Below are positions 61,563 through 64,000 of a stretch of 64,000 nt of DNA, one piece after another. Below the pieces are notes generated by a model. The model searched no databases. It was not told the origin of the DNA and saw only the letters and a list, made by a program, of their open reading frames with translations. A program made the position numbers and the translations under genes. How positions within the stretch are numbered: position 1 is the stretch's first letter; every line of letters begins with the position of its first letter. This DNA comes from Nitrosotalea devaniterrae (GTDB lineage Archaea; Thermoproteota; Nitrososphaeria; Nitrososphaerales; Nitrosopumilaceae), in NCBI GenBank assembly GCA_900065925.1, contig LN890280.1, positions 1,542,451 through 1,606,450 on the forward strand. Reading direction: 5' to 3'.

Positions 61563-61609
61563 ACAGACCATCAACAATAGATAAATTTGTCTTAAAAGTC
61601 ATGGTGCAT

Positions 61610-61694
61610 GCGGGAGTTGCCAAGCCTGGTCAAAGGCGCAGGGCTTAGGACCCTGTCTTTTAGGAGTTCGTGGGTTCAAATCCCACCTCCCGCA
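61610..61694 (+). tRNA. tRNA-Leu(TAG), probable integration site
   Basis: Class II tRNA of 85 bases: acceptor GCGGGAG/CTCCCGC, discriminator A, D-stem GCC/GGC, anticodon stem CAGGG/CCCTG around CTTAGGA, long variable arm, T-stem GTGGG/CCCAC with loop TTCAAAT. The gene is complete and intron-free. An integrase gene begins 50 bases downstream, so its 3' half is the likely attachment core. Confidence 0.95.
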
Positions 61695-61743
61695 TTACAA
61701 TTCGGGTGGAAGGTCTATATATTTAGACTGCGTATAGTATCCA

Positions 61744-62862
61744 GTGAATCTAGAAGGCAAGTCAATTGATAATTTTATGAAAGGTTTTCACAGTGATTCC
61801 ACCAAGGAATCCTATTGCAAAAAGCTTTCGCAGTTTTTGGATTTCTGCAAGTGTACTCCTGATGAACTGGAATCAAAGACCAGAAAGAATGTCAAGTGGT
61901 TCCAGGATATCTTCATTGATTATATCGAGGCAAGAAGAAAGGAGGTAAGCGGCTCGACATTGCACCAGTTTCGTGATTCCCTAAAGCACTTTTTTGAGAT
62001 GAATGATGTTGATAAAATAAACTGGTCCAAGATTGCAAAGATAATCCCGCATGCAAAAAAGACTGGAAGCGACAGGGCTCCAACCATAGATGAGATCAGG
62101 ATTATACTTGAGCTTGCAGATATCAGGACAAAGTGTATTGTTCTCTTATGTTGCAGTTCTGGAATAAGGGTGGGGGCATTTGATGGGCTTGTCTGGGGCA
62201 ACATAACTCCGATAACTCAGAAAGGAAGCATAGTTGCAGCCAAGCTTGTGGCATATCATGGCCACAGGGAACAGTACTATACTTTTGTCACACCAGAATG
62301 TTATAACACATTGATCCGATACAGAAAGCTTCGTGAGTCAGTAGGAGAGAAGATAACATCGTTCTCACCTCTCATACGAGATACGTGGGACAATAACAAG
62401 TACCGCAAGCAGAGAATGGAGGATCCAGCAATCGCAAAACCTCTAAGCTCAAAGAGTATAGCAAACCAAATGGGCGAGTTTCTCAAGAAAATGAAGATTA
62501 GGGAGTCAAGGATTGGAGTAAATTACGAGTTCAAGCAGATCCATGGTTTTCGCAAATATTTCAAGACAAATGCAGAACGTGCTCTGAAAACAATTGATGT
62601 TGAGAAACTAATGGGACATGCTGAAAACTATTACAAACCATCTGAGCATTACCTTCTTGAAGAGTATTTAAAGACAGTACAGTACCTGACCATCTCGGAG
62701 GCAAGTGATCTCAAAAACAAGCTCGAACAGCAGATTGTAACATCAGACAAAAAAGTAGGTGAGATTGAGCGTGACAATATCAACCTACAAGACAGGCTTG
62801 AGAGGATTGAAAAGAATTACAGCGACCTAAAGCAAATGATAGAGCGCAAGATATCTGCTTGA
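61744..62862 (+). CDS. Tyrosine recombinase (integrase)
   Basis: A 372-residue protein from a GTG start. Residues 8-100 form a SAM-like DNA-binding domain (STKESYCKKLSQFLDF). The catalytic set is visible: arginine in CSSGIRVGAF, HGFRKYF (HxxR), LMGHAENYY (GH) and a tyrosine in YKPSEHYLL. The last 70 residues are a heptad-rich coiled coil. It probably integrates the element at tRNA-Leu. The gene is intact, so integration does not split it as in SSV-type elements. Confidence 0.93.
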   Translation: MNLEGKSIDNFMKGFHSDSTKESYCKKLSQFLDFCKCTPDELESKTRKNVKWFQDIFIDYIEARRKEVSGSTLHQFRDSLKHFFEMNDVDKINWSKIAKIIPHAKKTGSDRAPTIDEIRIILELADIRTKCIVLLCCSSGIRVGAFDGLVWGNITPITQKGSIVAAKLVAYHGHREQYYTFVTPECYNTLIRYRKLRESVGEKITSFSPLIRDTWDNNKYRKQRMEDPAIAKPLSSKSIANQMGEFLKKMKIRESRIGVNYEFKQIHGFRKYFKTNAERALKTIDVEKLMGHAENYYKPSEHYLLEEYLKTVQYLTISEASDLKNKLEQQIVTSDKKVGEIERDNINLQDRLERIEKNYSDLKQMIERKISA

Positions 62863-63012
62863 TTTAATATCACAAGATGTTTTGTATTTTAATATCTGAT
62901 GTTACAACGATATCGGTGCATCAATAACTTATGTAATTGTCGCAGTCTTGCCCTGGCATACAGTATAAAATATTTCATCATATTACAACCAAGTTTCATA
63001 CGTGGAAATATC

Positions 63013-63687
63013 TCATACAAGAATTCTATAACTAAATGGCATGTTGACCATTTTTCGAACACGGTTATCTGGAGATAATGCAAAAAGAAAGAGGCAGTCA
63101 AATACAGTTTTTTCATCAATGGTATTATCTTTGCATATGTTCAGGATTGTAGTGATATAGTCAAAGTTTCCATGTTCTATTTTTTGTTTCAATATGGTAC
63201 CAAAAAAAGCAGGCATTTTGCCACCTGTTGCAAGTATGACGGCTCTACGAAATAAATCGGATGCATCTGGGTGATGCACATCAAGATCAGAGAATTTTAC
63301 ACAGTGGTTTAACATTTCATCACATACCAGTTTGAGCAGCCATGTCAAATCTTTTCTATCCTGTCTTTTCTCATAGGATTCAATAAAAAATGGAATCCAT
63401 TTTTCCCTGTCCTTGCCAAAATTTTTCTTCTCGATTAGATTCATTGCAGCCAAGTCAAGCCAGTAATATTCCAGTGGTTTCCAATCTGCTAATTCAGTGA
63501 GAAAATATGCAAGACCAAGCTTGCTTGTCTTGTACATTCCCAGATCAGTCTTTATGACTAGTTTCTTGGATAACATTCGTTTCATCATGGTTCCAGTTGC
63601 GCCTTCCTTCCAGCCCAGCATCTCTGAGATTTTCCATTGCGGACATCCTCCTATGCAAAGTTGCAGAATCTGGGCATACCTATTCAT
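63013..63687 (-). CDS. Winged-helix DNA-binding protein with unknown C-terminal domain
   Basis: A 224-residue protein. Residues 1-60 form a winged helix (ILQLCIGGCPQWKISEMLGWKEGATGTMMKRML, then a wing LVIKTDLGMYKTSKLG). The remaining 160 residues are helical and aromatic-rich, with no family I recognise. It is transcribed divergently from the small-gene module, and two related palindromic boxes lie between them, suggesting autoregulation. The preceding intergenic part 62863-63012 shows no gene. Confidence 0.7.
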   Translation of the reverse strand: MNRYAQILQLCIGGCPQWKISEMLGWKEGATGTMMKRMLSKKLVIKTDLGMYKTSKLGLAYFLTELADWKPLEYYWLDLAAMNLIEKKNFGKDREKWIPFFIESYEKRQDRKDLTWLLKLVCDEMLNHCVKFSDLDVHHPDASDLFRRAVILATGGKMPAFFGTILKQKIEHGNFDYITTILNICKDNTIDEKTVFDCLFLFALSPDNRVRKMVNMPFSYRILV

Positions 63688-63699
63688 GGTCAGATACCA

Positions 63700-63743
63700 A
63701 TATACATTGTATATATTTAAATATTAGAATACACATTGTATAT
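63700..63743. promoter_or_regulatory. Palindromic operator pair between divergent element genes
   Basis: Positions 63700-63714 read atatacattgtatat, a perfect seven-base inverted repeat around one central base. A second copy of its core, acattgtatat, recurs at 63733-63743, 33 bases on, about three helical turns. Both overlap the likely promoters (tatatttaaatatt between them), so a repressor bound here would control both directions. The winged-helix protein is the obvious candidate, by inference. Confidence 0.55.
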
Positions 63744-63744
63744 T

Positions 63745-63954
63745 GTGACAGTAGTACAACATAGCCAGTTCGATATGCTTGTAGATACATCAAATGATAC
63801 CCTGACGTCAACTGATGAAGATAGCCTGCAGGAAATAAAAGCAAAGATGGTACAGATTGACAAGGATATATCAGAGTTCAAAGTGATGCTTGTCAGCTAC
63901 CAGTCCAAAGTCCGCAGAATACTCTTTGACTCTTTAAAAGAAAATGATACTTGA
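63745..63954 (+). CDS. Short acidic coiled-coil protein
   Basis: About 69 residues from a GTG start (a TTG three codons earlier is possible). The first third is polar (VQHSQFDMLVDTSNDTL), and the rest is a heptad-patterned helix (LQEIKAKMVQIDKDISEFKVML). No family recognised. It overlaps the next frame by 11 bases, so the pair are probably translationally coupled. Confidence 0.6.
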   Translation: MTVVQHSQFDMLVDTSNDTLTSTDEDSLQEIKAKMVQIDKDISEFKVMLVSYQSKVRRILFDSLKENDT

Positions 63955-64000
63955 TCTTGTACTGATATCATCAATTGTATCCATTCCAATCCTGGCAGGA
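63944..64000 (+). CDS. Start of a membrane or exported protein, cut by the window end
   Basis: Nineteen codons from an ATG inside the end of the coiled-coil gene encode MILDLVLISSIVSIPILAG, a strongly hydrophobic start fitting a membrane helix or signal anchor. The rest lies beyond the window. The overlap suggests a coupled two-gene unit: a soluble coiled coil followed by a membrane protein. Confidence 0.5.
   Translation, partial: MILDLVLISSIVSIPILAG

Follow-up and report, generated by a model that had tools for sequence, protein, structure and literature searches.

What is inserted behind the tRNA-Leu(TAG) gene of Nitrosotalea devaniterrae, how far does it reach, and what does it carry? The window, a 64,000-nucleotide stretch of DNA that corresponds to C1:1542451-1606450 of the 1,805,304-bp single-contig genome, holds this gene at 61609-61695 on the + strand, where it was recovered intact by ARAGORN, as the first-pass annotation of this DNA had stated. 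The 3' end of the tRNA is preserved by a 17-bp attL core, AAATCCCACCTCCCGCA (61678-61694, + strand), which forms the left boundary of the element with base-exact junctions in empty relatives. The annotation had predicted a second copy of the tRNA 3' end within about 100 kb, and we found one 15 kb away, beyond the window: the attR copy of AAATCCCACCTCCCGCA is an exact direct repeat at C1:1619259-1619275, 15,131 bp downstream of attL and outside any tRNA gene. In the 160 kb searched beyond the window this was the single + strand match longer than 13 bp, and we estimate that about 2e-5 such 17-bp matches would be expected by chance on both strands of that length. Because the core recurs once on the same strand, the element is taken to be 15,131 bp long, with its DNA spanning the tRNA 3' end to C1:1619275, so that the earlier claim of cargo continuing outside the window also held. 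A 35-bp match at C1:1631528 was considered as attR and rejected, as it represents the 3' portion of the tRNA-Leu(CAG) gene, encoded on the opposite strand. To the right of attR lies a gene that resembles, by eye, formyltetrahydrofolate deformylase. A 16-bp palindrome, ACTCTGCATGCAGAGT, stands two bases before attR (L006:19241-19256) and again beside the attR of the related element in the congener G330 (L122, near 113); it is possibly a site for a recombination protein.

We also searched for the left and right flanks across 37 genomes of the same genus. The tRNA-Leu(TAG) gene runs straight from AATCCCACCTCCCGCA into the right flank in 23 congeners, giving a base-exact empty site; in G405, for example, AATCCCACCTCCCGCA is followed by CCTATTGAACTATACAAAGCTGCATTTC, which matches the sequence after attR in the window genome. 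G404 was excluded from this count because its tRNA 3' part was unaligned. A related 12-kb element occupies the same tRNA-Leu(TAG) site in G330, a more distant congener. The right flank is 94% and 93% identical to that of the window genome in G405 and G414, both empty, and 77% identical in the occupied G330; near relatives without the element and a more distant one with it are what a mobile element would give, and core genes would not. The comparison with related genomes, which the first-pass annotation had proposed as a check, thus bears it out: the site is empty in most, and these genes are not conserved core genes there. Taken together, the 17-bp att repeat, the 23 congeners with base-exact empty sites and the homologous occupied site in G330 confirm, at the level of sequence, an element of about 15 kb integrated at tRNA-Leu(TAG), whose left edge is the tRNA 3' end.

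The two occupied sites share much of their content. Identities to the G330 element reach 96% for the integrase, 96% for a 224-aa protein, 95% for an Argonaute, 96% for its TIR-APAZ partner, 69% for an AAA ATPase and 60% for the protein family TMcc396, and no match was found there to the peptidase of our element or to two proteins at C1:1614526-1616237. Strong recent transfer, suggested by the 85% DNA identity between the elements, was considered and dropped, since the right flanks are 77% identical and the excess is only modest. G330 has in addition a 4.9-kb sister element (L218:6518-11406) in tRNA-Leu(CAG), which has an att pair of its own and an integrase 85% identical; this smaller element encodes secreted-looking proteins, and no defence genes were recognised in it. 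At the TAG site G421 has a related integrase that is truncated by the contig end, and in G541 (L231:5178-7032) a tRNA-Leu(CAG) site holds an integrase that is broken and a remnant of TMcc396.

By its sequence, the element belongs to the known type of thaumarchaeal cryptic integrated elements, for which the median att length is 17 bp and the median size 17 kb (PMC6563490). It shares with them a tyrosine integrase, a place at a tRNA-gene 3' end, a 17-bp att and a size of about 15 kb; common to both are also the pairing of integrase and att repeat at the target, the empty site in relatives and, in the Pfam and PHROGs scans of its genes, the lack of hallmark genes of viruses or conjugation. It differs in its TIR-APAZ/Argonaute operon, the word Argonaute being never used in PMC6563490, and in having TMcc396 in common with elements that carry other defence-like genes. 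An Argonaute-family gene (pPIWI) is likewise present on an archaeal integrated element in Bathyarchaeia, BATPV1, but this is a tailed provirus, and a TIR-APAZ partner is not mentioned in the portion of that source considered here (PMC11705971).

The integrase (61744-62862, + strand) is an open frame of 372 aa, identified as a tyrosine recombinase by its family matches and conserved residues. It begins 49 bases downstream of the tRNA, in agreement with the distance of about 50 bases given before. It matched the phrog_1 integrase (8e-11) and NCBIfam recomb_XerA_Arch (8e-13, under the cut-off of that model). Its catalytic residues had been called intact. This holds for R142, H267-x-x-R270, H292 and Y303, which are conserved in eight relatives, but not for the beta-hairpin, where tyrosine recombinases usually have Lys and this copy has His (Lys or Arg in relatives). 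No relatives of the integrase were found among viral contigs. More distant integrases in the same genome, at C1:495394, 926539, 1660420 and 1769344, probably mark other integrated elements.

By sequence, the element backbone comprises the integrase, the 224-aa protein, a 72-aa protein, TMcc396, an AbrB-like protein and the AAA ATPase, to which several secreted-looking proteins are added. The 224-aa protein (63013-63687, - strand) has an N-terminus that looks helix-turn-helix-like by eye, and family scans including PHROGs gave no match for it. The 72-aa protein (63736-63954, + strand) is 85% identical in G330 and 43% in G538. TMcc396 starts at 63944, runs out of the window at 64000 and covers C1:1606394-1607584 (+ strand); it is followed on the same strand by the AbrB/MazE-like gene (C1:1607643-1607921; PF04014, 7.6e-06). 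The AAA ATPase (C1:1611735-1612916, + strand; PF13191, 7.7e-09; phrog_6841, 3e-22) has C-terminal winged-helix similarity. Further right are genes for a 187-aa protein (C1:1613709-1614272, + strand), two proteins whose N-termini look like secretion signals by eye (C1:1614526-1615446 and C1:1615530-1616237, both + strand), a 127-aa protein (C1:1616625-1617008, - strand) and a WING-49 protein (C1:1618589-1619224, + strand; NF058652, 3.9e-23). A glutamic (A4/G1) peptidase homologue at C1:1617366-1618550 (L006:17366-18550, + strand; PF01828, 3.1e-15) has a signal-like N-terminus, on what is an archaeal mobile element.

TMcc396 is present in seven of 250 genomes of the family. It has N-terminal hydrophobic helices, a coiled coil and a C-terminal domain modelled as a Holliday-junction-resolvase-like (Hjc-like) PD-(D/E)XK fold (1gef_A, E 6.8e-04, TMt 0.73); the model is of low confidence (pLDDT 65.8, pTM 0.37), and only this domain of it was used. 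D286 and K302 are invariant, with Ser at position 300 where the second acid is expected. The protein is probably membrane-anchored, and a role in maintenance or exclusion is perhaps conceivable as a guess. TMcc396 recurs beside different defence-like genes (L214, L228, L229, L230). Its neighbours include, in G538, a PD-T4-1-like/EVE-AAA protein and its possible PD-(D/E)XK partner, adjacent to an integrase of the family found here; in G416, AbiEii-like, HD, M78-peptidase and Mrr genes together with a GHKL ATPase; in G406, an AAA_15 ATPase that has tRNA-Val and another integrase alongside; and in G563, a nucleotidyltransferase. In our reading, TMcc396 belongs to the backbone of a family of elements that carry defence genes. 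In G532, a type IIG restriction gene close to a related integrase, in an element whose right end was not mapped, points to such a family too. A backbone gene common to elements that differ in their defence-like cargo would offer a handle for finding further archaeal systems.

The core of the cargo is a pair of genes on the - strand at C1:1608533-1611492. The upstream gene encodes a 461-aa TIR-APAZ protein (C1:1610107-1611492) with an N-terminal TIR domain (TIR_2, 3.7e-20) and then an APAZ domain recognised by APAZ/PNTD models, and it overlaps by 4 bp the gene for a short Argonaute of 525 aa (C1:1608533-1610110; PADLOC pAgo_I, 2e-148). Both frames are open. The Argonaute consists of MID-PIWI only, without N or PAZ, and aligns over its full length to short Argonautes of 506-541 aa. 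Its K237, Q248 and K283, invariant in 10/10 archaeal relatives aligned, fit the motif of the guide 5'-phosphate pocket of Argonautes. Active Argonaute enzymes have Asp in the first PIWI motif; here, in an alignment that held no active enzyme and with positions assigned by motif knowledge, the first motif reads YVGIT, with no Asp, and the third HKSS. With the pocket residues kept and this Asp absent, the protein is expected to bind a guide without cutting. In the partner, the TIR motif is W80-P-N-M-E84, of the form W-x3-E, with E84 invariant across 21 aligned TIR-APAZ proteins; in TIR NADases this is the glutamate expected to be catalytic. We infer that it is equivalent to E77, the catalytic TIR glutamate of characterised SPARTA (PMC10474274).

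The operon is not confined to this element. The Argonaute is 89% identical in the same-genus genome G299 and likewise in a contig of a Nitrosopumilaceae archaeon. A 3.1-kb cassette of both genes, without the element backbone, was found at 80-81% DNA identity in Nitrosarchaeum (L124, with a Vsr nuclease as neighbour) and in another Nitrosopumilaceae genome (L123, near a match to the PADLOC candidate PDC-S54), from which the cassette appears to move independently of the backbone. No relatives of TIR-APAZ were found in the viral contigs or phage records searched.

To place this pair among short Argonautes we used 80 loci from a scan of species genomes, in which the N-terminal domains of the APAZ partners group as TIR, HNH, Schlafen-AlbA_2, DUF4365, SMEK and others, and clade definitions from papers later than the original 2022 SPARTA study. 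In those definitions S2A comprises (Mrr-)TIR-APAZ and S2B mainly DUF4365- or DHS-like-APAZ (PMC12205087); an earlier survey of 2018 had assigned TIR to APAZ group IIa, and to IIb either DUF4365, SIR2 or the absence of a further domain (PMC6299218). Canonical SPARTA formed a separate clade in the Argonaute tree (99*, 6 rows) and likewise in the APAZ tree with the TIR part left out (97*, 5 rows). The Argonaute of the element grouped with archaeal TIR copies (100*, five rows) within a larger clade of AlbA-, TIR- and C4-type partners. Sequence searches of solved structures gave a ranking: SPARHA 9om4_B (HNH-APAZ) was nearest to the Argonaute (6.8e-93), then SPARDA (DUF4365-APAZ), then SPARTA (3.6e-51). 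For the effector, the APAZ was nearest to SPARHA 9om4_A (2e-24), the hits of the TIR part were to other TIR proteins, and none of the SPARTA effector chains reached E 1. The APAZ also scores far above the TIR-linked PNTD models (67 bits) with the SIR2-linked (147 bits) and REase-linked (145 bits) ones, and its W-x3-E differs from the R-N-E type of TIR motif in most canonical copies aligned. The pair has the build of SPARTA, a two-gene operon with TIR-APAZ upstream of a MID-PIWI Argonaute, a conserved TIR glutamate and a similar predicted fold, and differs from SPARHA and SPARDA in having a TIR effector and no nuclease domain (HNH, DUF4365, SMEK) on its APAZ. In a moderate AlphaFold2 model of TIR-APAZ (mean pLDDT 77.7, pTM 0.55), Foldseek aligned the whole length with SPARTA effectors (top E 5.6e-20) at a poor rmsd of about 15, so the agreement concerns the domains, not their placement; the APAZ part aligned with SPARHA at TMt 0.80, rmsd 3.5 and 24% identity. 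On this evidence the system is of a known kind, SPARTA by composition and SPARTA-like but divergent, with an Argonaute and APAZ outside the characterised S2A clade, which is why we do not file it within S2A; it may be sister to that clade. The first-pass annotation had judged this region the most likely home of an undescribed system, and a defence-type operon does lie there, but one not wholly undescribed. We found no laboratory study of this lineage, and no description of a TIR-APAZ system from ammonia-oxidising archaea in the Argonaute literature searched.

We consider it likely that the element carries an RNA-guided defence of the NADase type and is a vehicle for exchangeable defence genes. 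In SPARTA, the guide-loaded heterodimer senses complementary invader DNA and oligomerises, after which its TIR domains break down NAD(P)+ by hydrolysis and the cell comes to a halt (PMC10474274, PMC11156904). Both genes here are intact, overlap and are homologous to parts of such systems, and the operon probably works in a SPARTA-like manner; the type of guide, the type of target and the hydrolysis of NAD+ are assigned by analogy with relatives. By homology to SPARTA, SPARHA and SPARDA, TIR-APAZ and Argonaute would form a heterodimer, in which the Argonaute would take up a 5'-phosphorylated small RNA as guide and would not itself cut. Pairing of the guide with invader DNA would lead the complexes to assemble or oligomerise, and the assembled TIR domains would become active NADases, hydrolysing NAD(P)+ and depleting NAD+, so that growth would stop or the cell would die ahead of the spread of the invader. 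Carriage of the system may favour the host or defend the element against competitors. Such a system would be of interest as little is known about immunity in ammonia-oxidising archaea.

A more ambitious proposal, which we put forward tentatively, joins two parts: a lineage of TIR-APAZ/short-Argonaute pairs, found in archaea, Planctomycetota, Verrucomicrobiota and others, that stands apart from SPARTA and gained its TIR independently, and a TMcc396-marked family of Nitrosopumilaceae elements that swaps defence cargo. If TIR did arrive twice, the short Argonaute would serve as an all-purpose sensor of targets, repeatedly fitted with different killing domains. It is also plausible, though by no means assured, that the pair is a diverged member of the characterised SPARTA (S2A) clade and that TIR was gained once. 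The same gene order and composition, the SPARTA chains being closest to the predicted fold by E-value and the weak mutual recognition of the TIR profiles of canonical SPARTA and this lineage, whose scores are ambiguous on the origin of TIR, are consistent with such a single gain; a tree that places canonical SPARTA on one side with the larger clade holding our Argonaute was not rejected (p-AU 0.65), which leaves room for one ancient gain with later effector replacements. The separate starred clades of canonical SPARTA in both trees and the higher rank of SPARHA and SPARDA Argonautes in the sequence searches argue for a separate lineage, and a single clade of all TIR-paired Argonautes was rejected (p-AU 2.8e-89), so that one TIR gain would need later replacement by other effectors.

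The function of the TIR domain and the nature of the element may be read differently as well. With the SPARHA filament structure 9om4 as the closest match of both APAZ and Argonaute, the TIR domain might be structural or signalling, with SPARHA-like filament assembly or another effect as its output; the invariance of the expected catalytic glutamate in 21/21 aligned TIR-APAZ proteins makes this improbable. Less unlikely, though still doubtful, is a provirus or integrated plasmid whose Argonaute operon excludes its own competitors and does not serve the host. The tyrosine integrase with its tRNA att site and the similarity of the AAA ATPase to a PHROG of unknown function fit this, and among the cryptic elements of Thaumarchaeota many may represent viruses or plasmids not yet known (PMC6563490), but no capsid, portal, terminase, replication, or conjugation/transfer family was among the element genes scanned with Pfam and PHROGs. 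The decayed site in G541 brings to mind a decaying island with non-working cargo; such decay is very improbable here, where integrase, Argonaute and TIR-APAZ all have open frames and the latter two are nearly identical to the G330 copies.

Other APAZ partners among the scanned loci are also of note. Those of five archaeal loci (L018, L127, L128, L132, L135) have an N-terminal domain in a cluster of its own, for which Pfam gave no match in the scanned L135. A mostly archaeal cluster has a Schlafen AlbA_2 domain in its scanned member, L166, an effector type missing from the published clade definitions compared; it comprises L019, L020, L022, L023, L154, L155, L157, L160, L162, L163, L165, L166, L168, L171-L173, L176 and L185.
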